Made by a program: the position numbers and the translations under genes
Shown: positions 27,361-44,873 of the stretch, in pieces
How the letters are laid out: each line of letters opens with the position of its first letter
Position numbering within the stretch: the stretch's first letter is position 1
Source of the DNA: Hydrogenimonas sp.
GTDB lineage: Bacteria > Campylobacterota > Campylobacteria > Campylobacterales > Hydrogenimonadaceae
Direction: 5' to 3'
NCBI GenBank assembly: GCA_003978765.1
Contig: QNYO01000078.1
Span: forward strand, 1 to 46,003
Length of the DNA stretch: 46,003 nt
The notes under the pieces: generated by a model
What the model was told of the DNA's origin: nothing
Databases searched by the model: none
Seen by the model: the letters and a program-made list of their open reading frames with translations, nothing else

Positions 27361-27382
27361 TTTGGTAACAGTTTGGTAACAG
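27361..27382 (-). promoter_or_regulatory. PHO-box-like tandem repeat facing phoU
   Basis: This is a perfect tandem duplication of an 11-mer. Read toward phoU it is CTGTTACCAAA twice, so the CTGTTAC cores are 11 bp apart, like E. coli PHO-box half sites. It lies about 40 bp upstream of the phoU start and probably makes phoU-phoB-phoR autoregulated. Confidence 0.65.
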
Positions 27383-27414
27383 ATATTATAACAGGTGTAA
27401 GGACTCTGCAACAG

Positions 27415-27436
27415 TTTTGTAACCAAATTGTAACCT
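27415..27436 (+). promoter_or_regulatory. PHO-box-like tandem repeat facing pstS
   Basis: The sequence TTTTGTAACCA followed by AATTGTAACCT gives two TTGTAAC cores 11 bp apart on the pstS strand. An A/T-rich -10-like ATTATACAAT follows directly. This fits a PhoB-activated promoter in which the box replaces the -35. Confidence 0.7.
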
Positions 27437-28493: not shown

Positions 28494-28503
28494 TTCTGCC
28501 CCA

Positions 28504-28523
28504 TGCCATACTACGGTATGGCA
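28504..28523 (+). terminator. Intercistronic hairpin between pstS and the porin gene
   Basis: TGCCATAC-TACG-GTATGGCA is a perfect 8-bp stem with a four-base loop, 10 bp after the pstS stop. No T-run follows. It is probably an mRNA-stabilising or partial-termination hairpin that gives more pstS than porin mRNA. Confidence 0.55.
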
Positions 28524-28566
28524 CAACCCATTGTAATAAAAACTTTAAACCATAAAAGGAATAGTA

Positions 28567-29961
28567 ATGTTGAAAAAAACTCTTCTATCTTTTTCACTTC
28601 TTACACCATTTGCATGCGCACTCTATGCACAATCTGTAACACTCTATCAAGATACTGAAACTGGTGCGATCTATACAAAACCAGGTGAGAATCGCGTTGA
28701 GTTGGGTGACTTCATTGGTGCAAAAGAGGCATTTATTGATCATCAAAAGATCAGCTCAACAATCACCAAAAAAGAGCTCAAACTTAAGAAAAAACTTCCA
28801 AAAGTTGAGAATAGCAAATCACCAGAGTTTCTCCTTGGTAAACAGACGGGTCCAAATATGAAGATCTACGCTTTTGACAACCCTGATATGTGGGTTAAAC
28901 TTGGTGTTCGTCTCCAAGGAACATTTGAGAATCGTCAAGTCGATTATGCTGACAATACTCCAGATACTAACGTCTGGGATGCTTACCTTCGCCGTGTCCG
29001 CTTTGAAGTTGGTGTCGGATTCTCAAAACATGTCTCTTTCAGCATGGATATCCGAAATGACAAAGCAAACTACCAAAATAAAGGTGAGCAAGAGTTCAAC
29101 GTTGGTGATGCTTACTTGAAAATTAAAAAGCCATTTGATACTTCATTGGTGAACTTCAAACTCTATCGTGGTAAGATCGATGTCTCTCGTACAGAGACTG
29201 TCAAATCTGCCTATGTCTTGCACTACGATCGACCACATGTAGCTGATGAAGCGGCACAATTTATTACCCATAACCGCCGTGGTACCAACGTAAAAATGTA
29301 TGGTGACTGGAAGAAGAAAGTTCACTATGAAGTTGCATTTGGTGATGGTGTTTACTCTGGCAAATTCCATGATGCAACCGGTGCATCTTTCAGCGGTGAC
29401 AGCTTTACTCAAAAGAGCTTCTTCTACGGTGGAAAAGTTGTCCTCTCTCCATTTGATGGTTGGGAAGAGAAAAAACGTACAGAGAGCTACTTTGGACAGG
29501 GTAAACACTTTGAAATTGGTGCAGCATACTGGAAGAGCCCTAATATTGCCTATACAATTGGTACTGTATCAAAAGAGATCGATCATGAGTTGATCAACCT
29601 TGAAATGTCTGCACACTACAAAGGTGCCTTTGTTCAAGCAGAATATTTTAAATTTGATGGTGTTGTCAAAAATTTCGATACTGCTCCACAAACTATCGGT
29701 CAATCACATGGTTGGTATGTCACAGGTGAGTATGTATTCGAAGATTTGAACTATGTTGCACCATTTGTCCGCTATGAGAAGTGGGACAAATTGGAAGATG
29801 AGAATGGCTATAACCTTGAGTCAAAAGTTGCGGGTGTCAACTGGTATCTCCGTGGCAACACAACCAAAGTTGGTCTTGCTATTCAAAAAGATACTTATGG
29901 TGTAGAACTTGGTAATAAAACTGAAACTCGCTATAAATTGACAACACAGTGGTTCTTCTAA
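28567..29961 (+). CDS. Phosphate-selective porin O/P family outer-membrane protein
   Basis: This 464-residue precursor has a signal peptide ending near CALYAQ. A charged region (about 50-95) rich in Lys follows, then a porin barrel of alternating amphipathic strands. Porin_O_P marks are VKLGVRLQGTFENRQ near residue 112, YLRRVRFEVGVGFSK near 139, and KFKLYRGKIDVSRTE-like text near 200. It ends in Phe (TTQWFF), the outer-membrane assembly signal. OprP and OprO form anion channels that favour phosphate or polyphosphate. The position between pstS and pstC supports phosphate passage across the outer membrane. Confidence 0.9.
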   Translation: MLKKTLLSFSLLTPFACALYAQSVTLYQDTETGAIYTKPGENRVELGDFIGAKEAFIDHQKISSTITKKELKLKKKLPKVENSKSPEFLLGKQTGPNMKIYAFDNPDMWVKLGVRLQGTFENRQVDYADNTPDTNVWDAYLRRVRFEVGVGFSKHVSFSMDIRNDKANYQNKGEQEFNVGDAYLKIKKPFDTSLVNFKLYRGKIDVSRTETVKSAYVLHYDRPHVADEAAQFITHNRRGTNVKMYGDWKKKVHYEVAFGDGVYSGKFHDATGASFSGDSFTQKSFFYGGKVVLSPFDGWEEKKRTESYFGQGKHFEIGAAYWKSPNIAYTIGTVSKEIDHELINLEMSAHYKGAFVQAEYFKFDGVVKNFDTAPQTIGQSHGWYVTGEYVFEDLNYVAPFVRYEKWDKLEDENGYNLESKVAGVNWYLRGNTTKVGLAIQKDTYGVELGNKTETRYKLTTQWFF

Positions 29962-29994
29962 GCCACACTTCTTAAATCCAAAATAGAAGGGATA

Positions 29995-30034
29995 GATGAG
30001 GAGAGTGATCGCTATCGATCACTTGCTCCTCATC
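29995..30034 (+). other. Long hairpin after the porin gene
   Basis: GATGAGGAG-AGTGATCG-CTAT-CGATCACT-TG-CTCCTCATC forms a 17-bp stem with a four-base loop and a two-base bulge. It starts 33 bp after the porin stop and about 60 bp before the T-tailed terminator. It encodes no protein and could stabilise the pstS-porin mRNA or act in RNA processing. Confidence 0.6.
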
Positions 30035-30090
30035 AATGGACTCCTTAAAAACTATTTAAAAGCTTGCAAATTTCATACCTACTTCTAAAA

Positions 30091-30117
30091 AAGTGGCTTT
30101 TTTGCCACTTTTTTTTT
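30091..30117 (+). terminator. Rho-independent terminator after the porin gene
   Basis: AAGTGGC-TTTTTT-GCCACTT is a 7-bp stem followed by a run of T. It ends the pstS-porin transcript, so pstCAB needs its own promoter, which follows directly. Confidence 0.88.
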
Positions 30118-30128
30118 AGAATTGGACG

Positions 30129-30164
30129 ATATGTAATATTTTTGTAATCAAATTTCTCTATAAT
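30129..30164 (+). promoter_or_regulatory. PHO-box and -10 for pstCAB
   Basis: Two TGTAAT cores 11 bp apart (30129-30150) are followed nine bases later by a perfect TATAAT (30159-30164). This is the spacing of a PhoB-activated promoter lacking a -35. It lies 31 bp before the pstC start. Confidence 0.72.
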
Positions 30165-30195
30165 TACGGATATTTTTCACCCTAAAGGAAAGCGT

Positions 30196-31059
30196 GTGAA
30201 TCGACTCCTCGACACCATCTTCCACAACACCACCCGCTTTTTCGCTATTTCGGTTTTGATGGTTCTTGCAGCCCTCTTCTTCGTTCTCTTTAACGAAGCA
30301 AAACCTGCTATCGATGCATTTGGTCTGCAGTTCATCACCAATAGCAAGTGGGCACCCAATATGGATATTTTTGGCGGTTATCCGGCAATTTATGGTTCGA
30401 TTATCTCGACAATTATTGCAATGTTGATTGCGACCCCTGTGGCGATCGGTATTGCGATCTTTTTGAGTGAACTTGCACCACCATGGATTGCAACCATTGT
30501 AGGTATGGCGATCGAGCTTCTTGCAGCCATTCCATCGATTATCTATGGTATGTGGGGTCTCTTTTATCTTGCCCCTATTTTGCGTGATATTTGGGGTGGT
30601 AATGGCTTAGGGCTTGCCACAGCCGGTTTTGTCCTTTCGATTATGATTCTGCCCTTTATGGCAGCCATTACACGTGATGCGATGAAGACCACCCCACCTA
30701 TTCTCAAAGAGTCAGCCTACGGTATGGGGGCGACACGCTGGGAAGTGCTTAAAGATGTCGTCATTCCATACGTTAAAAGCGGTATTATCGGCTCAATTAT
30801 TCTTGCACTTGGTCGTGCCATTGGTGAAACCATGGCGGTCACATTTGTTATGGGGAACTCCCATAAAATCCCTGACTCAATCTTTAAGCCAGCTACGAGT
30901 ATTCCTGTAACATTGGCCAATGAGTTTACTGAAGCTGATACCGATCTGTACTACTCAAGCCTCTTCTATTTGGCACTCATTCTACTGGTGATTAGCTTTA
31001 CAGTCATTGCTATAGCAAAATTCTGGTTCCTTAGAAACCTTCAGGAGCAGCGCGTATGA
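30196..31059 (+). CDS. pstC: Phosphate ABC transporter permease PstC
   Basis: This 287-residue inner-membrane permease has six predicted helices. The first follows a short basic N-terminus. The EAA-type ABC-coupling loop is ESAYGMGATRWEVLKDVVIP near residue 174, followed by GIIGSIILALGRAIGETMAVTFVMGN, a PstC hallmark. The start is GTG at 30196 with AAGGAAA upstream. It overlaps pstA by 4 bp (ATGA). With PstA it forms the channel that PstB powers. Confidence 0.95.
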   Translation: MNRLLDTIFHNTTRFFAISVLMVLAALFFVLFNEAKPAIDAFGLQFITNSKWAPNMDIFGGYPAIYGSIISTIIAMLIATPVAIGIAIFLSELAPPWIATIVGMAIELLAAIPSIIYGMWGLFYLAPILRDIWGGNGLGLATAGFVLSIMILPFMAAITRDAMKTTPPILKESAYGMGATRWEVLKDVVIPYVKSGIIGSIILALGRAIGETMAVTFVMGNSHKIPDSIFKPATSIPVTLANEFTEADTDLYYSSLFYLALILLVISFTVIAIAKFWFLRNLQEQRV

Positions 31060-31904
31060 CACGACAAGAGCGACGTATTCTTCTGAATAACATCATTATG
31101 TTCCTCTCTTCAGCAGCTGCGATTGCAGGAATGCTCTTTCTCTTTTGGATTATCGGTGTGCTGATCTATAAAGGATTCACTGCACTCAATCTTGATATCT
31201 TCACCTACGATATGGCACCGCCAGGTCGTGAAGAGAGTGGTCTGCGCAATGCTCTGGTTGGACAGTTGATGCTTGTACTTGGTGCATCACTCATTGGTGT
31301 GCCTATCGGTGTACTTGCTGGAACCTATCTAAGCGAATATGGCGGTAAAAAGGGTCGTCTTGCCCGTCTGATTCGTGACATATCTGACATTATGATGAGT
31401 ACACCAAGTATCGTTATTGGTGCTTTCATCTATGCCCTTTTGGTTGAGCCATTTGGACACTTTAGCGGTTGGGCAGGGATTGCGGCATTGGCAGTCATGA
31501 TGGTGCCAATCGTTCTACGCACCACTGATGATATGCTTCAACTTGTTCCTGGTAGTCTTCGTGAAGCAGCCATTGCCCTCGGCGCACCCAAATATAAGAT
31601 GATTCTTCAAGTGGTCTATCGCGGTGCAAAAACGGGAATGCTCACAGGTATTTTGCTCTCTATTGCCCGTATTGCTGGTGAAACAGCACCACTTCTCTTT
31701 ACATCATTTAGCAATAACTTCTTCTCAACCGATCTGAATCAACCGATCGCATCGCTAACTGTTACGATGTTTAACTATGCCACCAGTCCTTATGATGACT
31801 GGATCAATCAAGGGTGGGCCGCAGCGCTTATCCTCGCCCTCTTCGTACTGGGTGCCAATATTATTGGACGAATTATTATTAGAACGAAAAAAGGAGACCG
31901 CTAA
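31056..31904 (+). CDS. pstA: Phosphate ABC transporter permease PstA
   Basis: This 282-residue permease has six helices and PstA features: [13 protein letters not shown] near residue 88, [41 protein letters not shown] (the coupling loop) near 167, and [16 protein letters not shown]. It overlaps pstC by 4 bp and pstB by 1 bp (TAATG), so the three subunits are translationally coupled. Confidence 0.95.
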
Positions 31905-32689
31905 TGTCAACGATTTGTGAAGTGACCCATGAACATATTATCGAAGTCAAAGATTTTAGCTTCTACTATGCCGGTCTCGATACACCGAACCTAAAAAAGA
32001 TCAATATGCCAATCGGCAAGGGAGCAGTCACGGCACTCATTGGTCCAAGTGGTTGTGGTAAAACCACCCTACTACGCTGTTTTAACCGTATGCATGACCT
32101 CTATCCTGGCAACCGCTATGATGGAGAGATCCTCTTTAAAGGGCGTAATATCCTTGATAAGAAAGAGGATCTAATTAAATTGCGTACACAAATTGGTATG
32201 ATTTTCCAAAAACCGACCCCTTTCCCAATGAGTATCTACGACAATGTTGCTTATGGTTTGCGTCTGCAAGGGATTAAGAGTAAAAGTGAGCTTGATGATC
32301 GTGTCGAGCAAGCTCTTAAAGATGCAGCTCTTTGGAAAGAGGTGGGTGATCGTCTTAAAAGTTCAGGAACAGCACTTTCAGGGGGTCAGCAACAGCGCCT
32401 CTGTATTGCGCGTGCCGTTGCGGTAGAGCCTGAAGTCCTTCTTTTTGATGAGCCAACATCAGCACTCGACCCTATCTCAACCCAAGCGATTGAAGAGTTG
32501 ATTATTAAGCTCAAAGAGAAGGTTACAATTATTATCGTAACCCATAACATGCAACAAGCAGCACGTGTCAGTGACTATACCGCCTTTATGTATCTTGGTG
32601 ATCTGATCGAACTTGGTGTCACAGAAGAGCTCTTCATTACTCCAAAAGAGGAGATGACCGAACAGTATATTACTGGAAAGTTTGGTTAA
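31904..32689 (+). CDS. pstB: Phosphate ABC transporter ATPase PstB
   Basis: This 261-residue ATPase has Walker [10 protein letters not shown] near residue 46, the PstB-typical [36 protein letters not shown] (Q-loop), signature LSGGQQQR near 157, Walker [13 protein letters not shown], and the switch His in [12 protein letters not shown] lies 8 bp before the ATG. It ends the pstCAB operon; no phoU follows it, as that gene is in the divergent regulatory operon. Confidence 0.96.
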
Positions 32690-32778: not shown

Positions 32779-32822
32779 CCCTGTAACTATTTTGTAATGG
32801 TTGTGTAATGATCCAGTAACTG
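32779..32822 (+). promoter_or_regulatory. Four-unit PHO-box upstream of the lipoprotein gene
   Basis: Four 11-mers in exact phase carry GTAAY cores at 32784, 32795, 32806 and 32817: CTGTAAC, TTGTAAT, GTGTAAT and CAGTAAC. An A/T-rich -10-like stretch (ATAATTATCAT) follows. Four units could bind two PhoB dimers and suggest strong activation. Confidence 0.72.
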
Positions 32823-32865
32823 TTCATAATTATCATTTCGCATGTACAGTTATATCAAGGAGTCT

Positions 32866-35800
32866 ATGTTGCATACAAGTAAAAAACGATTGAGTGGCTT
32901 TGCGATCGGTCTAAGCACGGCCGCAATTTTGGCCTTAACAGGGTGTACCAATGGAGATGGCTCATCCTATACATATACCAACTACAATGGAGATAACTAC
33001 ATCTTCAATAGTTCTGGAGAGACCTCAACAACTTCAAGCTCCACAACCTCGACAACAGATACAACCACCACAACAGCATCAACAACAGACACGACCACAC
33101 CAACAACAGATACAACCATTGTCCAAGCGGCATCCATTAGCTATCTTGAGGGAGATATTACCCAAGATACTACCCTTACAAGTGATACAGCATGGAAACT
33201 TCGTGGATTGGTTAAAGTGCGTCCAGGTGTCACGCTAACAATTGAACCAGGAACCATTATTCTCGGAGGTGATGAGACAGTTTTATCAAATCTTTCGACC
33301 CGTGCTCTCACGACCAGTGATACCAAAGACTACCTTGTCATTATGAAGGGTGCAAAAATCGTTGCAGATGCTACACCAGAGAAACCGATCATCTTTACTT
33401 CAACCATCGCCTACACCGATCCAACCAAAGCAGATACAGGTCAGTGGGGAGGGTTAACTATTCTTGGTAATGCACCAACCAACCATATCAATCCACACTA
33501 TGAAGTTGATGAGAATGACCCTGACTTTGCATTTGGTGGTACAGAAGCCAACGATAGTAGCGGTATTTTACGCAATGTAAAAATTCTCAATTCTGGTCAG
33601 GCTGTTGCAACAGATATTGAGATCAATGGTCTTTCACTTGCAGGTGTGGGTGCTGGTACAGTCATTGAAAATATTACTGTCGAAAACTCATCCGATGACT
33701 GTGTCGAAATTTGGGGTGGTACAGTCAATGTCACCAACCTTGAACTCAAAAACTGTCAAGATGATAGTCTCGACCTCGACTATGGATATGTAGGGATTGC
33801 CAAACATATTCATGTCACACAAGTTTCACCAGCACATGCAGGGTTTGAGATCTCAAGTGGTGGTACAAATCCAATGACCAGTCCAAAAATCATGGACTTT
33901 ACGATCCAAAAAGTAAATGGAAGTGATGAGGGTGGTATCTATATCAAAGATGATACCACTGCACCTATCTTTGGATATGGAACGATTACAACAGAAGGTA
34001 CCGATGCCGCAATCCATACCAAAACTCTCTTTACACCAGAACAGAAAGCGGCAATCGCATTTGAAGCAGTTCGATTAAACGCTGCTGTCAAATTTGATGG
34101 AAATGGTCAAGCTGATGTTGCAGAGCGCTACAACGCCGATGATGGTGACCAACAGATTGTTAAAACTCTTAGTGGTGATCTTACAACAGATACCCATTTA
34201 ACAGCCGACACATATTGGAAAATTGATGGACTTGTCAAAGTTCGACCAAGTGTCACCTTAACGATCGACCCTGATACCACCATTTTTGGTGATAATATTG
34301 GTGATGACTATATTGTTGTGATGAAAGGTGCAAAAATCATTGCAGAGGGTACAGAGAGTCAACCGATCATCTTTACATCAGAAACGGCACTGAAAGACCC
34401 TAATGCCGCAGATGTCGGACAGTGGGGTGGTTTAACAATTCTCGGTGGTGCACCAACCAACCATGCCAATCCACACTATGAAGTGAATGAGAATGATCCA
34501 GATTTTGCATTTGGTACGGCAACAGCAGGCAAAGGGAATGCAACCGAAAGTAGTGGTATTATTCGCTATGTTCATATTCTCAACTCTGGTAAAACCGTTG
34601 GAACCGATATTGAAATTAATGGCCTCTCACTCGCAGGGGTTGGTTCAGGAACAGTTGTCGATAATATCTTGGTAAAAAACTCTTCAGATGATTGTGTCGA
34701 AATTTGGGGTGGTACGGTTAACGTAAGCAATCTACAACTGGTGAACTGCCAAGATGATAGTTTAGACCTCGATTATGGTTATAGTGGTATGGTCAACCAT
34801 GTTGCCGTCACACAAGTTGCACCAGCCCATGCCGGTTTTGAGATCTCAAGTGGCGGTAACAATCCGATGACACAAGCAATTATCAAAAACTTTACCATTA
34901 ATAAAGTGGCTGGAAGTGATGAAGGGGGGATCTATATCAAAGATGATACCACTGCACCTATCTTTATCGATGGAACAGTCAATGTCGATACAACCGATGT
35001 TGCAATCCACACAAAACTACCAGCCTCAACAGAACAGATCAATGCCATCGGCTTTAAAAATGTGAACCTCACTCCTGCAACATTTGATGGTGCAGCAGCC
35101 AATGATATCCAACTTCGTTGGGAAGCCAATGATGGTGCCATTCCAATCGATACCACAACCCTTGTAGGTGATATCACATCAGATTTGACACTCCATAAGA
35201 CACGTATCTATAAAATCGATGGACTTGTCAAAGTTCGACCAGGTACTACCTTAACCATCGAACCGGGTACAACAATCTTTGGTGATAACCAAGGTGATGA
35301 CTATATCGTTGTCATGAAAGGAGCAAAGATTATTGCAGATGGCACAGCAGAAGAGCCCATCATCTTTACCTCTGAAATTGCATTGAATGATCCAACACAA
35401 GCGGATGTCGGACAGTGGGGAGGTTTGACAATTCTTGGTAGTGCACCAACCAACCATGCCAATCCACACTATGAAGTGAATGAGAATGATCCTGATTTTG
35501 CCTTTGGTTCACTTAATGCAGGTGAAGGTGATAGCAACGACAATAGCGGTATTTTACGCCATGTCAAAATTCTTAACTCAGGAAAAACCATCGGTACCGA
35601 TATAGAGATCAATGGACTATCACTTGCTGGTGTCGGTGCTGGTACAATTGTCGATAACATTACAGTTGAAAACTCATCTGATGACTGTGTTGAAATCTGG
35701 GGTGGTACGGTCAATGTGAGCAATCTCAACCTCACAAATTGCCAAGATGACAGCTTAGATCTCGATTATGGCTATAGTGGAACGGCCAGCTATGTCACTG

Positions 35801-36135
35801 TTACGCAAGTTGCACCAGCCCATGCCGGTTTTGAAATCTCAAGTGGCGGCAATAACCCAATGACACATGCCCGTATCGAAAACTTTACAATTAACAAAGT
35901 AGCCGGCAGTGATGAAGGGGGGATCTATATCAAAGATGATACCACCGCACCTATCTTTATCAATGGAGTCGTCCATGTTGATACAACCGATGTTGCAATC
36001 CATACCAAACTACCAGCAACCGCTGAACAGAAAGCAGCCATCGCCTTCAAAGATGTAACACTCTCACCAGAGACTTTTGATGGTGCAGCAGCTGATGATA
36101 TCAAAGCACGTTGGTTAGCCAATGATGCCCAATAG
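32866..36135 (+). CDS. Large surface lipoprotein with three beta-helix-like repeats
   Basis: I prefer ATG 32866, which has AAGGAGT just upstream, over the in-frame ATG at 32842. The 1089-residue precursor has a lipoprotein signal with lipobox LALTGC (C27), then a Thr/Ser-rich linker (about 50-90). Three homologous units follow (about residues 96-436, 437-767, 768-1089). Each runs from a GLVKVRPxVTLTI start through GQWGGLTILG-APTNH, an SGI(L/I)R strand, EINGLSLAGVG, NSSDDCVEIWGGTVNV, QDDSLDLDYGY, AHAGFEISSGG and GSDEGGIYIKDDTTAPIF. The spacing suggests a right-handed parallel beta-helix. It probably sits on the outer membrane. Similar GQWGGL proteins partner TonB-dependent receptors in other phyla, as I recall. 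The PHO-box and neighbours point to capture of a phosphorus source; no enzymatic motif is visible. Confidence 0.75.
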   Translation: MLHTSKKRLSGFAIGLSTAAILALTGCTNGDGSSYTYTNYNGDNYIFNSSGETSTTSSSTTSTTDTTTTTASTTDTTTPTTDTTIVQAASISYLEGDITQDTTLTSDTAWKLRGLVKVRPGVTLTIEPGTIILGGDETVLSNLSTRALTTSDTKDYLVIMKGAKIVADATPEKPIIFTSTIAYTDPTKADTGQWGGLTILGNAPTNHINPHYEVDENDPDFAFGGTEANDSSGILRNVKILNSGQAVATDIEINGLSLAGVGAGTVIENITVENSSDDCVEIWGGTVNVTNLELKNCQDDSLDLDYGYVGIAKHIHVTQVSPAHAGFEISSGGTNPMTSPKIMDFTIQKVNGSDEGGIYIKDDTTAPIFGYGTITTEGTDAAIHTKTLFTPEQKAAIAFEAVRLNAAVKFDGNGQADVAERYNADDGDQQIVKTLSGDLTTDTHLTADTYWKIDGLVKVRPSVTLTIDPDTTIFGDNIGDDYIVVMKGAKIIAEGTESQPIIFTSETALKDPNAADVGQWGGLTILGGAPTNHANPHYEVNENDPDFAFGTATAGKGNATESSGIIRYVHILNSGKTVGTDIEINGLSLAGVGSGTVVDNILVKNSSDDCVEIWGGTVNVSNLQLVNCQDDSLDLDYGYSGMVNHVAVTQVAPAHAGFEISSGGNNPMTQAIIKNFTINKVAGSDEGGIYIKDDTTAPIFIDGTVNVDTTDVAIHTKLPASTEQINAIGFKNVNLTPATFDGAAANDIQLRWEANDGAIPIDTTTLVGDITSDLTLHKTRIYKIDGLVKVRPGTTLTIEPGTTIFGDNQGDDYIVVMKGAKIIADGTAEEPIIFTSEIALNDPTQADVGQWGGLTILGSAPTNHANPHYEVNENDPDFAFGSLNAGEGDSNDNSGILRHVKILNSGKTIGTDIEINGLSLAGVGAGTIVDNITVENSSDDCVEIWGGTVNVSNLNLTNCQDDSLDLDYGYSGTASYVTVTQVAPAHAGFEISSGGNNPMTHARIENFTINKVAGSDEGGIYIKDDTTAPIFINGVVHVDTTDVAIHTKLPATAEQKAAIAFKDVTLSPETFDGAAADDIKARWLANDAQ
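33151..36132 (+). repeat. Three tandem repeats of about 1 kb inside the lipoprotein gene
   Basis: Units begin at about 33151, 34174 and 35167, with lengths of about 1023, 993 and 966 bp. Units 2 and 3 are more alike than either is to unit 1, sharing long identical stretches around the NPHYEVNENDPDFAFG, SSDDCVEIWGGTVNVSNL and DEGGIYIKDDTTAPIF coding regions. This suggests a recent second duplication and possible recombination hot spots. Confidence 0.85.
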
Positions 36136-36166
36136 TGATAACCACCCTCTTCTCTCTCTTCTCTAA

Positions 36167-36206
36167 AGAGAGACCGGGAACCTCTCCCGGTCTCTCTAAT
36201 TTTTTT
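36167..36206 (+). terminator. Rho-independent terminator after the lipoprotein gene
   Basis: AGAGAGACCGGGA and TCCCGGTCTCTCT form a perfect 13-bp stem with a five-base loop, followed by AATTTTTTT. It separates the lipoprotein transcript from the TonB operon. Confidence 0.92.
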
Positions 36207-36216
36207 AAATATTTTA

Positions 36217-36249
36217 AAACTTAATTAATACGTAACCGACTTGTAACTT
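36217..36249 (+). promoter_or_regulatory. PHO-box upstream of the DUF3450-TonB operon
   Basis: Three 11-mers in phase carry TAAT or TAAC cores at 36222, 36233 and 36244; the last two read CGTAACC and TTGTAAC. A TATTAC -10-like element follows about 15 bp on. This would place the whole seven-gene TonB operon under PhoB. Confidence 0.65.
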
Positions 36250-36300
36250 ACTTTTTCTAAACTTCTATTACTAATTCATATCTTAATTCATGGGGAAATC

Positions 36301-37068
36301 ATGATTCATCGAACAATCAAATCATGCGTGACAGGATCATTAATCCTTTCATCGGTTCTCTTTGCTGGAGACGATGATACGATGGCCAAAGCGTTGATGA
36401 AGCTTCGTGCCGAAGTGGAACAACTCAATACACAGATTCAAGATCAGCGTGATGCAACCAAAGCCACGATGCGATCGCTTATGATGGAGAAGAATGATCT
36501 CGAAGCGACAATTGCACGTAGTGATCTAAAGATCAAACAGCTCGAACAGGAGATTCGTAAACTCAAAAAGGAGATTGCTGAAGCAAGCAAGAACTCTGAA
36601 GGGATCAAGCCAATCGTTCTTAAAGCGATCACACAACTTGAATCGCATATTCAATCAGAGCTCCCTTTTAAAACAGAAGAGAGAGTGCAAGATGTACGAC
36701 GCATTAAAGAGGAGATGCAAAATGGCATCATCACACCACAAAAGGCACTTGCACAGGTTTGGAACAGTTATGCCGATGAGATTCGCCTCACCAAAGAGAG
36801 TGGCATCTTTAAACAGACCATTACATTAGATGATCAAGAAAGATTGGCAGAAGTGGCACGTATTGGGATGGTGATGATGTACTTCAAAACACCCGATGAT
36901 CGTGTCGGCTATGTCGATCATAATGGTGATGGATGGTACTACAAAGAGGTGATCGATAAAGAGAAAAGAGAGATGATTCTCACTCTTTTTGATTCGATGC
37001 ATAAACAGATCCGTACAGGATTCTTTACCCTTCCTAATGCTATCGCTACATCAAAGGTTCAACGATGA
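36301..37068 (+). CDS. DUF3450-family periplasmic coiled-coil protein
   Basis: This 255-residue protein has a signal peptide (about 1-22), a long coiled coil (about 25-105) rich in Lys, Glu and Gln, and a globular C-terminal half with ITPQKALAQVWNSYADEIRLT and VARIGMVMMYFKTPD typical of DUF3450. The family is encoded at the head of TonB2-type operons (DUF3450, ExbB, ExbB, ExbD, TonB, TPR) in many proteobacteria; its exact role is unknown. It may couple the energy complex to the envelope. It overlaps the next gene by 4 bp (ATGA). It is the first gene after a PHO-box. Confidence 0.82.
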   Translation: MIHRTIKSCVTGSLILSSVLFAGDDDTMAKALMKLRAEVEQLNTQIQDQRDATKATMRSLMMEKNDLEATIARSDLKIKQLEQEIRKLKKEIAEASKNSEGIKPIVLKAITQLESHIQSELPFKTEERVQDVRRIKEEMQNGIITPQKALAQVWNSYADEIRLTKESGIFKQTITLDDQERLAEVARIGMVMMYFKTPDDRVGYVDHNGDGWYYKEVIDKEKREMILTLFDSMHKQIRTGFFTLPNAIATSKVQR

Positions 37069-38399
37069 TGAAACATATCATGCTCATAACTTTAACCCTA
37101 CTCTTTACAATCACACCACCACTGCGTGCTGAAACATCTGATGAGAATCGCCTTGAACGGGCATATGCCAAAGAGTTTGCCTTCTTAAAAGCTCAAAAAG
37201 AGATGCTCAAAAAGCGTCTTAAAGAGGTAGAAGAGAGTGATGCTCAAAAGATTGCCAAAGCCCAAAGAGAGATTGAGAAGCTTCAAGAGCGTGTCATTGC
37301 CAAAGATTTGCGTGTTGAAACACTCAATGATACTCTTTTAAACCTCCAACGCAATGTCGAAAGTATCGAGAGTGATACCCAACTGATTGAGTCGGTTGTG
37401 ATGCAAGGAAACTCTCTTTTGCGCCAATATGGGTATCAACTCCATCTCGATCCTAACAACTACCCCAAAACGCTCTCTGAACTCTTTGAAGTCTCATTAA
37501 AAAAAGCGGATACCCTCTCACGTGTTCGTACCCAAAAGGGAACATTCTACCTCAAAGATGGAACACAAAAAGCAGGAGAGATAATTAAGGTTGGAAATAT
37601 CGCCTCTTATGGTGTTGCCAATGGTGTTGCTGGGGCATTGGTTCCAGCAGGTGGTGGTCAATTCAAACTTTGGGATCAGAGACTTTCAGCCCAAACGGCA
37701 CAGGCACTTGCTTCCGGCACGATGCCAGAACTTCTTCATATCTTTATCTATGAAAATACCCAAAAAGAGGTAGCAGATAAGGAGGAAAAGAGTGCGCTTG
37801 ATGTGATTCAATCGGGTGGTATCATCGGCTGGGTCATTGTGGGTCTTGGTCTGTTTGGTCTCCTTTTGATTCTTTTGCGTATTCTATTCCTCTCAACCGC
37901 TTCATCTAAAACCATGACCATTGCTAAAGAGGTTTCAGAAAAACTACGTACTCAAGGGCGTGAAGATGCCTTGAATCTTCTTAAAGGACGTCGAGGTGCT
38001 GCAGCACGTGTCCTTAAAGCAGTTGTTAGAAACCTTGACCGTGATCGTGAACATATTGAGGATATTGTGACAGAAGCTTTGATTCATGAGAGTGAACGCC
38101 TCGATAAGTATGGTACTGCCATTATGGTCATTGCTGCTGTTTCACCCCTTCTTGGACTTTTGGGAACTGTCACAGGAATGATTGCAACCTTTGACATCAT
38201 CACAGAGTTTGGTACAGGTGATCCAAAACTTTTATCTGGTGGTATCTCGATCGCACTGGTTACAACAGAACTTGGTCTTATTGTCGCCATTCCTCTCCTT
38301 CTTATCGGTAACCTCCTTAATGGATGGTCGGAGCGTATTAAAGATGAGATTGAAGCTTCAGCGCTTCATATCATCAACCAATACCATATGAAGCAGTAA
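37065..38399 (+). CDS. Long ExbB/TolQ-type proton-channel protein with coiled-coil periplasmic domain
   Basis: This 444-residue protein has a signal-like N-terminus (about 1-22) and a long coiled coil (about 25-115). A periplasmic domain of about 120 residues follows. The C-terminal MotA/TolQ/ExbB domain (about 245-440) has three membrane helices. The last two carry AAVSPLLGLLGTVTGMIATF and the ISIALVTTELGLIVAIPLLL motif, with the Thr/Gly pattern of the ExbB pore. Long ExbB forms of this type are typical of TonB2-like systems, as in Vibrio. It is followed 2 bp later by a second, short ExbB, so both probably join one complex. Confidence 0.88.
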   Translation: MMKHIMLITLTLLFTITPPLRAETSDENRLERAYAKEFAFLKAQKEMLKKRLKEVEESDAQKIAKAQREIEKLQERVIAKDLRVETLNDTLLNLQRNVESIESDTQLIESVVMQGNSLLRQYGYQLHLDPNNYPKTLSELFEVSLKKADTLSRVRTQKGTFYLKDGTQKAGEIIKVGNIASYGVANGVAGALVPAGGGQFKLWDQRLSAQTAQALASGTMPELLHIFIYENTQKEVADKEEKSALDVIQSGGIIGWVIVGLGLFGLLLILLRILFLSTASSKTMTIAKEVSEKLRTQGREDALNLLKGRRGAAARVLKAVVRNLDRDREHIEDIVTEALIHESERLDKYGTAIMVIAAVSPLLGLLGTVTGMIATFDIITEFGTGDPKLLSGGISIALVTTELGLIVAIPLLLIGNLLNGWSERIKDEIEASALHIINQYHMKQ

Positions 38400-38401
38400 C
38401 A

Positions 38402-39025
38402 ATGGCTGAGACACTCTCCAATCTATTCCAGCAATTTTTGCTCTATATGCAAAGTGGTGGCTTTGTGATGTGGCCACTTCTTGTGTTAACGATCATCCTA
38501 TGGTATGCGATTGGTTACCGATTCCACACACTCAAACGTGGTTCTAAAAAGAGTGTACGGGTCTTGATTCGCAAATATCTTACCGGTAAGCGACAAAAGA
38601 CCAAAGGGTTGATTGACCGTGCGATTGTCGATGCGATTGAAGCTGTCAATGGAAAGTGTGATGGAAAGAGAGGGCGTGAAATTATTGAAGATCTTTTCTT
38701 CCCCTATTATCAAGATTTGAAACGATACAGAAAAGTCATTAGCACTATCGTAATGGTTGCACCACTCATTGGACTCCTTGGAACGGTGATTGGAATGATT
38801 GAAACCTTCGACTCTCTTGCAAGCATGGCACTCTTTACACAAGGTGGTGGTATTGCTGCAGGTATTTCACAAGCACTCTTTACCACCCAGCTTGGATTGG
38901 TTGTAGCAGTTCCTGGTCTCATCATGGGGCGTATGCTCGATAACAAAGCCAATATGATGGAGCTGGAGTTGGAACAGATCAAAGATATTCTCTGTGCGGA
39001 GAAAGGATTAGACAATGAAATATAG
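38402..39025 (+). CDS. exbB: ExbB-type proton-channel protein (short form)
   Basis: This 207-residue protein has three membrane segments: one near residues 17-38, then the pair near 115-140 and 160-185 with VAPLIGLLGTVIGMIETF and GISQALFTTQLGLVVAVPGLI. These are the standard ExbB/TolQ motifs. The cytoplasmic loop is basic. It overlaps exbD by 11 bp. With ExbD it uses the proton gradient to drive TonB. Confidence 0.93.
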   Translation: MAETLSNLFQQFLLYMQSGGFVMWPLLVLTIILWYAIGYRFHTLKRGSKKSVRVLIRKYLTGKRQKTKGLIDRAIVDAIEAVNGKCDGKRGREIIEDLFFPYYQDLKRYRKVISTIVMVAPLIGLLGTVIGMIETFDSLASMALFTQGGGIAAGISQALFTTQLGLVVAVPGLIMGRMLDNKANMMELELEQIKDILCAEKGLDNEI

Positions 39026-39419
39026 AAAAAAGAGTATGACCGACCAAAATGTCGATATCTCTCCACTCATCGATATGGTCTTTATTCTTCTGATCTTCTT
39101 TATGGTCAGTTCAACCTTTGTTAAAGATATGAAGATCGATTTAGAGCGACCTGGTGCCACCTCTGCAACACGTGCTTCAAGCAAAGTGATCAAAGTCTAT
39201 ATCGATAATCAAGGGCAACCCTATATCGATAACCAACCGATCAAAGCGTGGGCAGTACAGAGTAAGGTGCGTGACCTGCTTCGTAACTCAACTGAAAAAT
39301 CGGTACTGGTTGTCACCGATGAGACCATTGCTGTTGAGAAGTTGATCGATATTATCGATCAGTGTCGTCAAGCAGGTGCCAAAGATGTCGCTGTCGCAAC
39401 CAATAAAGAGGTCGGTTAA
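39015..39419 (+). CDS. exbD: ExbD-type energy-transducing protein
   Basis: This 134-residue protein has one membrane helix near residues 15-35 with the ExbD signature DISPLIDMVFILLIFFMV. It contains the essential membrane Asp (D17) and a periplasmic domain ending with VDIIDQCRQAGAKDVAVAT. The N-terminus is basic, as expected for the cytoplasmic side. The TonB gene starts 1 bp after its stop. Confidence 0.95.
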   Translation: MKYRKKSMTDQNVDISPLIDMVFILLIFFMVSSTFVKDMKIDLERPGATSATRASSKVIKVYIDNQGQPYIDNQPIKAWAVQSKVRDLLRNSTEKSVLVVTDETIAVEKLIDIIDQCRQAGAKDVAVATNKEVG

Positions 39420-39420
39420 C

Positions 39421-40065
39421 GTGCGAAGAGAACCATCTACGCTCAAACGGCACCTACTGGCTCTATCATGGAGTCTTTTTGGACTCTTTTTTGTCTTTAT
39501 CGTTGTGATTGAGATGAATCATGAGGGGTGGAAAGAGCCACCCAAAAAGAGAGAGGTTACAGCATCATTTGATATTCCACCGATGCAAAAACCCAAGCCG
39601 AAGCCAAAGCCCAAACCAAAACCTAAGCCCAAAAAGAGAGAGACCAGCCGACCCCATCCAGCCCCAAATCTAATGTCACAACTCTCTGGAATCGATACAG
39701 GGCTTGAGGCATTCCAAAGCGATGATCTCATCTCTGAATCATCACTCCTTAAAGATGTGGATCATAGCAATATGGTAATGACCGATGATACAGTGGACTC
39801 TCCACCAAAACCGATCCAGAGAACTCCTATTGAGTATCCTAAAAAGGCACGACGGCAAGGGATTACAGGCTATGTTGTTATGAATCTCCTACTTGACCAG
39901 CATGGCAATGTCCAAAAGGTCAAAATCCTTGAGAGCCAACCAGAAGGGGTCTTTGATGATGTGGCGATTGCCAGTGTCAAAGGATGGAGATTTAAACCGG
40001 CAGAGTATCAGGGAAAACCTGTCAAAGTATGGGCGAAACAGAAGATTCGCTTTGAACTCAATTAA
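39421..40065 (+). CDS. tonB: TonB energy transducer
   Basis: I start it at GTG 39421, directly after the exbD stop with GAGG nine bases upstream, giving 214 residues; an in-frame GTG at 39376 lies inside exbD. There is one N-terminal membrane helix (about 12-32). A periplasmic Lys-Pro repeat (eight KP units near residues 55-72) spans the periplasm. The C-terminal TonB domain (about 135-214) has YPKKARRQGITGYVVM, VKILESQPEGVFDDVAIASVKGWRF and a WxKQKIRFEL end. It carries energy from ExbB-ExbD to the receptor at the end of the operon. Confidence 0.93.
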   Translation: MRREPSTLKRHLLALSWSLFGLFFVFIVVIEMNHEGWKEPPKKREVTASFDIPPMQKPKPKPKPKPKPKPKKRETSRPHPAPNLMSQLSGIDTGLEAFQSDDLISESSLLKDVDHSNMVMTDDTVDSPPKPIQRTPIEYPKKARRQGITGYVVMNLLLDQHGNVQKVKILESQPEGVFDDVAIASVKGWRFKPAEYQGKPVKVWAKQKIRFELN

Positions 40066-40074
40066 GGAGAGCGT

Positions 40075-41226
40075 ATGAGACCTATCATGAGCCTGCTACT
40101 GACCGTCGCGCTCTCAATGCAGACACTTTTTGCCAAGAGTGACGAGGTCGATTATATGCAACTTACTGCACTTCTGCTAAAAGATGGTTATATCGACCGT
40201 GCCTATGAGACACTCAAACAGGTCGATCTCAATAGCTCAACAGTAGATAAAGGCTACTACTATCTGCTCAAGGGGCTTATCTTAACCAAAAAGGGAGAGT
40301 ATCCATCGGCAAACCAAAACTTTTATGATGCCATTGCACATAGCAGTGATGCCAATGCCACCCAACCCATCTATCTCTATATTGCACAAAACAGCTTTCT
40401 AATGCAAGATTATGGGGGGTGTATCGATGCCCTTGACCATATTCCTGAACAGGTGAACAGAAACCCAAAACTTCAGAGCCTCAAAGCAGAGTGTTACTGG
40501 AAAGTTGGGAAAAGAGAGAGAGCACTTGATACCTTAACCAAACTTTTAGAGCATCATCCTAACTTTATTAATGCCTATAAACAGCGGTTCTACTACTTTA
40601 TCGAACTGCAACTCTATCAATCGGCACTTGACGATGCCAACAACTATCTTCAACATGCCCAACCCAATGAGACCATTATGCTCAACTTCATTCAAGCACT
40701 ACGCAAAAGTGGGCAGATTGATCGTGCCATTGAGTTGGCAGAGAAGGCAAAGCTCACCTACCATAACCGTGCCAAAATCATTGTTATGCTTGCCCATCTC
40801 TACCTTGATAAAGGGATGATTCATGCAGCGGCTGATCTCTTTAATCAAGCCTCCATCTATAACCCAACCTATACCAAAGAGACAGCAGAGATGTATCGAC
40901 GTGCCAAAGATTATGTGATGGCACTGATGAAAAATGCTCAAATGCTCGATACCAAAGAGAAGTATAAACAGCGTATCGCCATCTTTCTTGAGTATGGTGA
41001 CTTTGAGAGGATGATTGCTTCAAAAGATGCACTTGATCGTAACGGTTTGCTTGATGATGAGACAATGCGGTATGCCTTGGCATATGCCTACTATATGGAG
41101 GGGGAGTTCGACCAAGCCGAATCTCTCCTAAGCACCCTAACCCAACCAGAACTCTTTAAAAAGGCCACAGAATTGCGACGAAAGATGCAACAGTGTAAAA
41201 ATAGTATTTGGGAGTGTGAACAATGA
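40075..41226 (+). CDS. TPR-repeat periplasmic protein of the TonB operon
   Basis: This 383-residue protein has a signal peptide (to about residue 21, TLFAKS) followed by tandem helical repeats of the TPR or Sel1 type: YYYLLKGLILTKKGEYPSAN, LKAECYWKVGKRERALDTL, AHLYLDKGMIHAAADLF, and YALAYAYYMEGEFDQAESLL. It occupies the position of TtpC in Vibrio TonB2 operons, where a TPR protein is needed for receptor energisation. AAGGAG lies 7 bp before the ATG. Its stop overlaps the receptor gene by 4 bp (ATGA). Confidence 0.85.
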   Translation: MRPIMSLLLTVALSMQTLFAKSDEVDYMQLTALLLKDGYIDRAYETLKQVDLNSSTVDKGYYYLLKGLILTKKGEYPSANQNFYDAIAHSSDANATQPIYLYIAQNSFLMQDYGGCIDALDHIPEQVNRNPKLQSLKAECYWKVGKRERALDTLTKLLEHHPNFINAYKQRFYYFIELQLYQSALDDANNYLQHAQPNETIMLNFIQALRKSGQIDRAIELAEKAKLTYHNRAKIIVMLAHLYLDKGMIHAAADLFNQASIYNPTYTKETAEMYRRAKDYVMALMKNAQMLDTKEKYKQRIAIFLEYGDFERMIASKDALDRNGLLDDETMRYALAYAYYMEGEFDQAESLLSTLTQPELFKKATELRRKMQQCKNSIWECEQ

Positions 41227-44200
41227 TACAAAGAGCCCTTCTTCTCATACTCCTGCTAACCATCGAGCTTTTAGCGGGTCGTGGTGAGTTGGCACTCTAT
41301 CTCTTTAAAAATGGGCAACCATTAGCCCATCAAAAGGTTGTGATCTATCCTATTACAGGTCAACCCAACCAAAAGATCTCAACCACAAAACCGATCAAAA
41401 TCGTCTATACCGATGAGGAGGGTGCTATCATAACCCCTCTGAAAACGGGAAAATATCAACTTCAAATCTTTGCACAAGATCATGGAGAGACCCAAGCCTT
41501 TATCCGAAAAAACGTTATGATCGATGAGGAGAAACAGTCACAGATAATTCTTTCTCTCTCATCTGATAATCAACTCCGTTTTTCTGATGTTGAAGCAACA
41601 CAAACAGTAGAAACAGTACCGACCAAACAGACGGTTAAAAAAGCAGTTCAAAAAGGGAGTGTTGCCCTAACACTCATCTCATCAGAAGAGAAGCAGCCTA
41701 TTGTGGGTGCGAGAATCTTTGTTCCTGGTTTAAAGATTGATGCCATCAGTGATAAAAAGGGGCAGGTCATCATCGATCTACCAGAAGGGAGTCAAACCCT
41801 CTCCATCATCCACCCAGACTTCTCATCACAAAGTGTGACAGTCACCATCTACCCCAATGAGCTAACAAGTAAAAGGGTAGAACTGACCCCTTCAGCAATG
41901 GAGCTTGAAGAGTTTGTTGTCCTTGCTCCACACCTTCAAGGAAGTATCGCTGCGGTGGTTGCAGAAGAGAAGAGCAGTGAATCGATTGCCAATATCTTAG
42001 GGTCTGAACAGATCTCCAAACAGGGAGACTCAACCGCCGCAGGTGCATTAAAACGGGTCGCTGGTGTTACAATCATTGGTGGAAAAAATATCTATATCCG
42101 TGGTCTTGGCGACCGTTACTCATGTACGGAACTCAATGGGATGTCACTTCCTTCTCCTAACCCCATCAAACGCACCGTACCACTCGATATGTTCCCAAGT
42201 GGGGTCATTGGAAGTTTGCAGGTTCAAAAGAGTTTTACCCCCGATATTACGGGAACATTTGGTGGAGGATATGTTAATATCCGAACCAAACACTCAAGCC
42301 CTGAAGATCATGTCACCATTAAAGTAGGTGTCAAAGCCCATGAGTCTGTAGGTCAAGAGGTGACATCATATGAAGGTTCAACAACCGATTGGTTTGGATA
42401 TGATCATGCCTATCGTCCTTTTCCCGATACACTCAATCAACCACTTATCCCTGTTCAAGGCGAACGTCCACCCACACTCAACATCTCTTCAGATGCTATG
42501 CAAAAGATCTTAGTTGAGCGTGTTATTGACCCCAAACAGGAGCGTATTCCTATAGGAGTCGACCATCAACTTGAAGTAGCAAAAACTTTTGATCTGGGAG
42601 AAGATGAAGAGATTAGTCTACTAGGCAACTATGGCTATAAAACCGATGCACGACGTGTTACATACACCACCTATGACTACATTATCTCAAGTAACGGAAC
42701 CCAGTTACCTGAACCTGATAATACAGCAGTCAATAATCTCTACCGCACAACCATTCAACATGGTGGTATCTTAAATGTCGGATATAAAAATGGTACATTT
42801 GATGCCAAATATACCAAACTCTATGTCCTCAATACGATCGATCAAACCCGCGATATTAACGGTACATTTGGAGAGAACAACTCAAAAGAGCATCAATACT
42901 TCTTTGAGTGGCAAGAGCGTGAACTCAATGTTGATCAACTTAGTGCTGGAGTCGATTATCAGTTTGGGGTTCATCATCGTTTGGATGTTGGTGGTGAGGT
43001 TGCACGTGCAGAAGAGTATGTCCCCAATGATGTTTACTATAACTATAAGCAGTATCGTCTCAATGAACCATATGTTTTTGAACAACCCGACAGTCGCCTC
43101 CGTTATAGCCATCGTACAACAAAAGATAAGGTCAAAAACATCTTCTTAAAAAATAGAACCGATCTACCGATGCTCTTCAGTAAAGAAGATTATCTTGAGT
43201 TGGGTCTTTTTAGTGAACAAAAAGAGCGTGAAGGTCGTCGTATCGATATCGAAGTACAAAGTACCCTCAAAAATGATGTGATAACATCCCTTCCAATCGG
43301 TGGTACCCTAACATACAATGATGGTGATGCCGATCATCTGGTTGTCAGCCTCACATCCCGTCCAAAAGATCAGTATGATGCATCGCTAGATCGTGATGCC
43401 TACTACTTCAAACTGATGTCGCATCCAACTTCCAAGCTTAGTGCTATGTTTGGTGGACGTTATGTCACCATTACACAGAGTGTTGATCAGATGAGAGTCG
43501 ATCAAAATATTGTTGTGAATGAACGCAATAGCCTATCGTTTAAAAAGTTTCTTCCAAGTGTAACCTTGAAATATATGATCAGTGAGAGTGATCAAGTCCG
43601 TTTTGCGTATGGTAAAACCTTTATCTATCCCGACTTTCGTGAGTTTGTCAATGCTGAATTTATGCACCCCATCTTCTTGGCAAAAATTTCAGGCAACCCA
43701 AATCTTGTCGAAACCGATATTAAAAGCTATGACCTTCGATATGATCACTACTTCGGTGATATCGATAATATGAGCACTACCCTATTCTATAAAGATCTGA
43801 TGCATCCGATTGAAGATACACGTGAATTTACAACCTCAACACTCGATCGCTTTGGATTCGATAATGCCAAACGTGCAACACTCTATGGGGTTGAATTGGG
43901 CTGGCTAAAAAACCTCAGCTTTCTCACGCCCTACTTTGAGAACCTCACCCTATCAGGCAACTATACCTATATCAAATCACGCATTGAGCTCACAGAGGAG
44001 CAGAAGTTGAAGTATGTGACACAAGAGAGAGGTCTGCAAGGATTATCCCCTTATGTCATCAATCTATCCCTCACCTACGATATCCCTAAAACACGCTCCA
44101 TCAACCTCTCTTACAATAAGATGGCAAAACGTTTGATGCGTATTGCGATCAAAAATGGTGATGTTATTCTTGGACTCGATGATTATGAGATTCCACCTCA

Positions 44201-44381
44201 TCTTCTTGATGTCACATGGATTGAGAAGATGAGATTTGATACGATTCCTGGAAACTATGCCATGACCTTTAAAATTCGCAACCTCTTAGATAGTGAAACC
44301 AGATGGGTTCAAGGAGATAATGTCTCTCTAACCTATAAAACTGGTCGTGAACTCTCCCTTTCAATCAGTGGTACATTCTAA
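41223..44381 (+). CDS. TonB-dependent outer-membrane receptor with two N-terminal Ig-like domains
   Basis: The 1052-residue precursor has a signal peptide (to about residue 19), a first beta domain (about 20-115), and a second carboxypeptidase-regulatory-like domain (about 145-225). The TonB box, ELEEFVVLAP, lies near 227. The plug (about 250-365) has LKRVAGVTIIGGKNIYIRGLGDRYSCTELNG and VPLDMFPSGVIGSLQVQKSF. A 22-strand-type barrel follows and ends in Phe (SISGTF). The IRGLGDRY/PLDMFPS form resembles receptors paired with large surface proteins in Bacteroidota and marine gammaproteobacteria. Its substrate is unknown. Operon position behind a PHO-box suggests a phosphorus-containing ligand, perhaps an organophosphate or polymer. 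Siderophore uptake is possible but no Fur-box-like site is seen. Confidence 0.88.
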   Translation: MIQRALLLILLLTIELLAGRGELALYLFKNGQPLAHQKVVIYPITGQPNQKISTTKPIKIVYTDEEGAIITPLKTGKYQLQIFAQDHGETQAFIRKNVMIDEEKQSQIILSLSSDNQLRFSDVEATQTVETVPTKQTVKKAVQKGSVALTLISSEEKQPIVGARIFVPGLKIDAISDKKGQVIIDLPEGSQTLSIIHPDFSSQSVTVTIYPNELTSKRVELTPSAMELEEFVVLAPHLQGSIAAVVAEEKSSESIANILGSEQISKQGDSTAAGALKRVAGVTIIGGKNIYIRGLGDRYSCTELNGMSLPSPNPIKRTVPLDMFPSGVIGSLQVQKSFTPDITGTFGGGYVNIRTKHSSPEDHVTIKVGVKAHESVGQEVTSYEGSTTDWFGYDHAYRPFPDTLNQPLIPVQGERPPTLNISSDAMQKILVERVIDPKQERIPIGVDHQLEVAKTFDLGEDEEISLLGNYGYKTDARRVTYTTYDYIISSNGTQLPEPDNTAVNNLYRTTIQHGGILNVGYKNGTFDAKYTKLYVLNTIDQTRDINGTFGENNSKEHQYFFEWQERELNVDQLSAGVDYQFGVHHRLDVGGEVARAEEYVPNDVYYNYKQYRLNEPYVFEQPDSRLRYSHRTTKDKVKNIFLKNRTDLPMLFSKEDYLELGLFSEQKEREGRRIDIEVQSTLKNDVITSLPIGGTLTYNDGDADHLVVSLTSRPKDQYDASLDRDAYYFKLMSHPTSKLSAMFGGRYVTITQSVDQMRVDQNIVVNERNSLSFKKFLPSVTLKYMISESDQVRFAYGKTFIYPDFREFVNAEFMHPIFLAKISGNPNLVETDIKSYDLRYDHYFGDIDNMSTTLFYKDLMHPIEDTREFTTSTLDRFGFDNAKRATLYGVELGWLKNLSFLTPYFENLTLSGNYTYIKSRIELTEEQKLKYVTQERGLQGLSPYVINLSLTYDIPKTRSINLSYNKMAKRLMRIAIKNGDVILGLDDYEIPPHLLDVTWIEKMRFDTIPGNYAMTFKIRNLLDSETRWVQGDNVSLTYKTGRELSLSISGTF

Positions 44382-44422
44382 TCTCCCTTACCATCTGACT
44401 CTTTTGAGTTGGATGGTCACTA

Positions 44423-44467
44423 CTTTGTAATCGTTCTGTTCTTCAATTGTAATCTTTTTCCTATAGA
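44423..44467 (+). promoter_or_regulatory. PHO-box-like element and -10 for psiE
   Basis: TTTGTAATC at 44424 and ATTGTAATC at 44446 are 22 bp apart, two turns of the 11-bp register. A degenerate middle unit, CTGTTCT, lies between them. A TATAGA (44462-44467) follows in -10 position. This is the weakest of the boxes in the island. Confidence 0.55.
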
Positions 44468-44504
44468 CTACGCTCAAACAAATATCTATAAGGAGCAAAC
44501 ATTT

Positions 44505-44873
44505 ATGGCATTACAAACCCGTTTTAAACTCTTTGAGTCGATCGATCTTGTGGTAGCAAGTATCATCTTTATCGCACTTATTATCACTGGTGCAGATTTT
44601 ACAAAGACAATTATCCTTCTCTTAGAGCTGATTGTCATTATTGAGGTGACACAGATGATCTTTATCTTCTTTAAAAAGCATCGGATCAAACTTCGCTATA
44701 TGATCGATACAGCAATTATCTATATCCTTCGTGAATTGATGATCTCTATCACACATGAGCATATCGATATGCTCAAAATTTCAACCATCATCGCCTCTCT
44801 CTTTGCTCTCTTCTTTATGCGCTACTTGGCTATTACGATTACCTACTCTTCTAAAATGCAAATGACTGATTAA
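44505..44873 (+). CDS. psiE: PsiE-family phosphate-starvation-inducible membrane protein
   Basis: With ATG 44505 (AGGAG nine bases upstream) the protein has 122 residues and three or four membrane helices. The PsiE-family marks are the final conserved block IDTAIIYILRELMISI and FFKKHRIKLRYM before it. PsiE is induced by phosphate starvation in E. coli; its molecular function is not known. The frame is open to 44409, but that part lies over the PHO-box and -10 and is not translated in my reading. Confidence 0.82.
   Translation: MALQTRFKLFESIDLVVASIIFIALIITGADFTKTIILLLELIVIIEVTQMIFIFFKKHRIKLRYMIDTAIIYILRELMISITHEHIDMLKISTIIASLFALFFMRYLAITITYSSKMQMTD

Follow-up and report, generated by a model that had tools for sequence, protein, structure and literature searches.

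What is an eight-gene set encoding a large lipoprotein, a TonB-dependent receptor and a complete TonB motor doing inside an island of phosphate-starvation genes? The set lies at 32842-44381 of the window, by which we mean the whole 46,003-nucleotide stretch analyzed (QNYO01000078.1 of Hydrogenimonas sp. assembly GCA_003978765.1), a single contig (G000:C6) of a 1.6-Mb, 80%-complete genome. Gene calls and Pfam matches confirmed the genes, order, and coordinates proposed in a sequence-only reading of this DNA. Between pstB and psiE, the cassette runs lipoprotein, DUF3450 protein, long ExbB, ExbB, ExbD, TonB, tetratricopeptide-repeat (TPR) protein, and TonB-dependent receptor (Table 1); phoU-phoB-phoR, divergent from the pst genes, lie upstream. 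As discussed below, several observations favor the reading, to which we give a probability of about 70%, that this cassette is an outer-membrane importer for a phosphorus source under control of the phosphate (Pho) regulon.

First, Pho-box-like direct repeats, with TGTAAY recurring at 11-bp steps, precede pstS, pstC, the lipoprotein gene, and the DUF3450 gene, so that pst and cassette promoters share the PhoB-type repeats by which Pho-regulon promoters are recognized. The pattern TGTAAYN5TGTAAY, with at most one mismatch, occurred 7 times in the window compared to 1.19 expected, a number reached in 0 of 100 shuffles, and all 7 matches were on the plus strand in these four promoters; a three-unit pattern occurred 4 times compared to 0.01 expected. 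The sequence-only reading had counted four units before the lipoprotein gene, all of which we found, and three before the DUF3450 gene, where two are good and the third is weak. Genome-wide, the exact pattern matched 9 times (reversed control, 2), with 4 matches on the window contig and no obvious phosphate genes adjoining the others. The repeats before pstS and pstC are also present in congeners. Second, in 96 related loci, scored for pairs with at most two mismatches within 200 bp of a gene, Pho-box-like sites precede 66 of 79 lipoprotein genes, 49 of 59 DUF3450 genes, and 21 of 30 genes for neighboring PhoB-like regulators, compared to 38 of 283 other genes, whereas the reversed pattern precedes only 13 of the 79 lipoprotein genes. 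The difference between lipoprotein and other genes gives a Fisher p of 6e-32, a value inflated by the non-independence of related sequences. Because the excess of repeats in the window is matched by conservation of sites in relatives, there is strong evidence for the predicted Pho control of the cassette across its range.

Third, the motor appears to belong to the cassette. DUF3450 proteins of Campylobacterota fall into two sharply separate score classes, one at 85-123 bits (20 genomes) and one at 217-257 bits (~17 genomes). The low-score class consists of exactly the 19 genomes with the lipoprotein plus G196, whose contig starts at the DUF3450 gene and holds the remainder of the cassette. The high-score class comes from more distant TonB operons, with ExbD ~29-33% identical in the five examined. 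This confinement of cassette-type DUF3450 to lipoprotein genomes and one genome with a cut contig strongly supports a dedicated energizer, as had been proposed. The cassette TonB is also the strongest of the three TonB_C matches in the genome. The second-class DUF3450-TonB operons are found at loci L185-L194 and L195-L199.

The triplication of the lipoprotein, recognized in the sequence-only reading, is real, with three tandem β-helix units of ~330 residues that are 63-79% identical in protein. One unit was modeled as a right-handed β-helix with a predicted local distance difference test (pLDDT) score of 94.5. The nearest solved structures in Foldseek were helices of the polygalacturonase type, along with alginate enzymes, but the resemblance was at the level of fold only (TM-scores, 0.2-0.5) and no substrate was indicated. 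The lipoprotein sequence had no match among solved structures in the PDB and no GH28 match in Pfam that would place it with GH28-like polygalacturonases; it has a β-helix instead of the SusD domain of SusCD/PusCD systems. The 52 units compared, from Campylobacterota, alpha- and gamma-proteobacteria, and Bacteroidota, share E155, D180, D181, E184, D202, D203, and D206 (unit 3 numbering) without exception, and E231 almost always. Because the 22-29 residue spacing of this ladder fits successive coils, the acidic residues probably form one strip, and the Asp/Glu ladder suggests a predicted metal-binding or catalytic site.

Fourth, homology ties the lipoprotein and receptor to phosphate starvation in other bacteria. 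The lipoprotein is 34% identical to a Sphingomonas protein (E 4e-25 in a 7.3-Gb search; E 2e-30 pairwise), and the receptor matches the Sphingomonas receptor with an E value of 2e-63. In Sphingomonas and Indioceanicola, a plasmid search placed such lipoprotein and receptor genes immediately upstream of gsp genes. In Caulobacter crescentus, ElpS (CC0170), which is made under phosphate starvation, and the receptor CC0171 adjoin genes of the type II secretion system (T2SS), an arrangement common to Sphingomonas (PMC2996285). With a lipobox, a receptor in the same cassette, and homology judged through the Sphingomonas protein, the window lipoprotein is of the ElpS type and shares the link to phosphate starvation, but it has three units rather than the one of the Sphingomonas homolog, stands with a TonB motor operon rather than adjacent T2SS genes, and lies beside pst with Pho-box-like sites. 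The phosphate-starvation lipoproteins of Flavobacterium johnsoniae (FI/FII/FIII, PUSIII/PUSIV) are related to ElpS, are assigned to the pectin-lyase fold, and adjoin TonB transporters with a carboxypeptidase-like domain, with one set beside phoBR; these ElpS relatives with adjacent TonB receptors rank among the proteins most strongly induced by phosphate starvation (PMC8115612). The F. johnsoniae system thus likewise pairs a phosphate-starvation lipoprotein with a TonB receptor, its homology to the window protein being indirect, via ElpS, but it belongs to the Bacteroidota and no cassette-borne energizer is described for it. Receptor-lipoprotein pairs without a motor also occur in Parabacteroides and Aureibacter (Bacteroidota).

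Fifth, the cassette recurs as a unit. The lipoprotein was present in 19 of 397 Campylobacterota genomes (~5% of the sample), and the remaining cassette adjoins it wherever the contig continues, with a few extra lone lipoproteins. A further scan of named genomes gave 77 loci, 53-57 with energizer and receptor, in Sulfurimonas, Sulfurovum, Sulfuricurvum, Arcobacter, and Thiovulum and also in genomes labeled Desulfobacterota or Gammaproteobacteria. Several unrelated loci have pst or pho genes close to the cassette, linkage to a phosphate porin recurs, PiT is nearby in five loci, and a PhoB-like regulator occurs at the same locus in 37 of the 77, directly flanking the cassette in many. Placement in a phosphate-starvation island was borne out here and in several other genera, and the survey for co-localization with pst that had been suggested returned recurrent linkage. 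The flanking gene in many relatives encodes a second response regulator that resembles PhoB at 42-55% identity (L045 14217-14879, L047 17142-17804, L053 16148-16813, and others), often with Pho-box-like sites before it; the window has no such regulator. Lone lipoprotein homologs at L054 16788-17780 and L063 11456-12436 have neither a lipobox-type start nor a motor, and their genomes also carry the cassette.

None of 17 congeners had the receptor. The island is the same in one of them, G125 (phoR-phoB-phoU / pstS-pstC-pstA-pstB); there psiE belongs to the pst operon, following pstB within a few bases, and a GNAT gene lies beyond. Compared with this island, the cassette falls exactly at the junction of pstB and psiE. 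Judged from the adjacency of pstB and psiE in G125, the cassette is a module that has been gained or lost. Orthologs in congeners are mostly 84-97% identical for pst proteins (pstA, 83-92%), 73-78% for the porin where full length, and 81-90% for phoU-phoB-phoR; a misbinned or misassembled island was rejected on the basis of this 83-97% identity of most pst proteins.

How might such a cassette work? When phosphate is scarce, PhoR-PhoB would activate two transcription units through the 11-bp direct repeats, one for the lipoprotein and one for the operon from DUF3450 through receptor; the sites are seen in the window, and induction is expected from relatives. The lipoprotein, its three ElpS-like β-helix units anchored in the outer membrane, would capture or trim a phosphorus-bearing substrate and serve the receptor, a partnership expected from its relatives, and it might be surface exposed, speculatively after T2SS export as for ElpS in Caulobacter. 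The receptor would be opened by its own TonB, powered by a motor of ExbB and ExbD together with TtpB-, TtpC-, and TtpD-like accessory proteins. We infer import by this motor from what is known of the families and from the obligate co-occurrence of lipoprotein and energizer in our sample. Phosphate freed in the periplasm would then enter through PstSCAB. What the cargo is, and whether it is bound or cut by the lipoprotein, are matters of speculation. One tentative and rather doubtful proposal is that the ElpS-like unit, with its invariant Asp/Glu ladder over consecutive coils, represents an undescribed metal-dependent surface protein, either an enzyme acting on a phosphorus polymer or a protein capturing it, and that, tandemly repeated, it feeds a phosphate-dedicated TonB channel, in an outer-membrane import route common to Campylobacterota, Proteobacteria and, at the level of receptor and lipoprotein, Bacteroidota.

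Several results weigh against import of a phosphorus source. The receptor model (pLDDT 81.5) resembles, to a similar degree, TonB-dependent receptors for iron, heme, pyrroloquinoline quinone, and metals, and nothing in it points to phosphate. The conserved patch of the lipoprotein is acidic, and a polyanion would not be favored as its direct ligand. Among the neighboring genes examined, neither a phosphatase nor a phytase nor a nuclease was reproducibly part of the cassette, and a search of the 80%-complete genome found no PhoX. In Caulobacter, moreover, CC0171 was found to be constitutive, and no change in internal phosphate was seen (PMC2996285).

The generic receptor fold and the invariant acidic residues of the lipoprotein would also suit the import of something other than phosphorus that is needed in phosphate starvation, for example iron or calcium for phosphatases of the PhoX/PhoD type, or a complex of phosphate with ferric iron or calcium, the lipoprotein serving as metal-binding partner. 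PhoX-like genes were present in 9 of 10 cassette genomes searched, although not in that of the window. The Vibrio TonB2/TonB3 operons encode TtpB (DUF3450), TtpC, ExbB, ExbD, TonB, and TtpD (TPR); TonB2 is Fur-regulated and serves siderophores, with both TtpB2 and TtpD2 needed for transport, and TonB3 carries a receptor gene and is not iron-regulated (PMC6957404). The six motor genes of the window have the identical, TonB2/TtpC-type order. By contrast with TonB2, for which no ElpS-like lipoprotein is described, the cassette has a DUF3450 subtype clearly apart from the other subtype of the phylum and has Pho-box-like sites, while siderophore and metal genes are absent from the island. A search of the window for Fur boxes, allowing up to three mismatches, found none, and for this reason iron control was rejected and the motor, although TonB2-like in its working, is not filed with Fur-regulated iron uptake. 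We consider import of a metal or metal complex unlikely.

Distinctly less probable is that the lipoprotein acts, as proposed for ElpS, as a surface enzyme that is set free into the medium and stimulates phosphatase activity, with the receptor and TonB motor serving release or activation rather than import. ElpS is indeed released by the T2SS and raises secreted alkaline phosphatase activity (PMC2996285). The Hydrogenimonas genome has a T2SS cluster on another contig (G000:C8, L161 9449-16992), with GspD identified by profile and followed by ATPase-like, GspF-like, and pseudopilin-like genes. However, GspD/T2SS genes also occur in congeners without the cassette; the T2SS was accordingly rejected as a cassette marker, not being tied to the cassette. 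A complete dedicated TonB motor with a receptor is typical of import, and we know of no case in which TonB drives release of a lipoprotein. Uptake of a carbohydrate or other glycan that merely happens to be encoded in a phosphate island, suggested by the fold-level similarity of the β-helix to polygalacturonase and alginate enzymes and by RagA as the sole relative of the receptor among solved-structure sequences (a weak match to its N-terminal part), is very improbable given the low TM-scores, the lack of any solved sequence relative of the lipoprotein, the lack of carbohydrate genes in the cassette, and the Pho-box-like sites kept in relatives.

If Pho-controlled import of a phosphorus source is taken as the preferred reading, how new is the cassette? 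A similar island exists on plasmid pBGP9 of Alteromonas macleodii, where phoB-phoR-pstS are followed by lipoprotein-receptor-DUF3450-ExbB-ExbB-ExbD-TonB-TPR. As in the window, cassette genes lie beside phosphate genes and the lipoprotein has three units, but there the lipoprotein and receptor come first and the proteins are only 25-40% identical. Pseudoalteromonas also has the cassette. In the full-text literature searched (subscription journals not covered), we found neither the Pho-controlled combination as a cassette, nor a link of DUF3450 to phosphate starvation and PhoB, nor a functional study of the pBGP9 island. The complete phosphate-controlled cassette thus appears undescribed, while its single parts are known. 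The claim to a new type of system loses force, since receptor-lipoprotein pairs of this family, represented by ElpS and Flavobacterium FI/FII, are already known from phosphate starvation, and since the cassette occurs in Alteromonas and ~5% of sampled Campylobacterota. The Pho link has become far stronger than the sequence-only reading could make it.

Porins are usually credited with the passage of phosphate compounds across the outer membrane. With a Pho-controlled receptor joined to an ElpS-like lipoprotein and a TonB motor of its own in one conserved cassette, active import of a phosphorus source can be tested directly, and the genomic definition by DUF3450 subtype, lipoprotein, and Pho-box-like sites can be searched in other phyla. 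The cassette also offers a testable function for a widespread, uncharacterized family of β-helix lipoproteins.

Table 1. Features of the phosphate island and cassette, in window coordinates.
Feature	Position	Strand	Basis or detail
phoU-phoB-phoR, likely island regulator	24551-27320	-	phoU 26646-27320, phoB 25975-26646, phoR 24551-25981
Pho-box-like repeats before pstS	27364-27434	+	units at 27364, 27375, 27418, 27429
pstS, OprO/P-like porin, pstC, pstA, pstB (high-affinity phosphate uptake)	27498-32689	+	
Pho-box-like direct repeat before pstC	30132-30148	+	pattern match
Four Pho-box-like units before lipoprotein gene	32782-32820	+	units at 32782, 32793, 32804, 32815 (11-bp steps)
Lipoprotein, β-helix, ElpS-like	32842-36135	+	Pfam β-helix match, LTGC lipobox
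Lipoprotein units	33127-34128, 34150-35118, 35143-36114	+	internal comparison
Acidic ladder, unit 3	35605-35835	+	E922, D947, D948, E951, D969, D970, D973, E998; ladder recurs in units 1 and 2
Two Pho-box-like units before DUF3450	36231-36247	+	units at 36231, 36242
DUF3450 protein (TtpB-like), cassette-specific subtype	36301-37068	+	Pfam
Long ExbB with N-terminal coiled coil (TtpC-like)	37065-38399	+	Pfam
ExbB	38402-39025	+	Pfam
ExbD	39015-39419	+	Pfam
TonB	39376-40065	+	Pfam
TPR protein (TtpD-like)	40075-41226	+	Pfam
TonB-dependent receptor with CarbopepD_reg, Plug, and barrel domains	41223-44381	+	Pfam
psiE-like gene	44505-44873	+	Pfam; ATG at 44505
Acyltransferase-GNAT fusion, C-terminal part only (cut by contig end)	45046-46003	-	Pfam

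The psiE leader (44382-44504) contains two TGTAAT units 22 bp apart; in G125, psiE instead follows pstB by a few bases. The fusion of an acyltransferase with an Acetyltransf_5 (GNAT) domain at the contig end is full length in G125, and in nine other loci it lies next to the lipoprotein gene of the cassette. Its resemblance is to OlsF-type ornithine lipid synthases, enzymes whose products are phosphate-free membrane lipids. At the opposite edge of the window, a 334-residue open reading frame (27-1031, minus strand) resembles, by eye, a radical-SAM menaquinone-synthesis enzyme in its first half and a sialidase/BNR-repeat protein in its second, and is possibly an assembly chimera at the contig edge.

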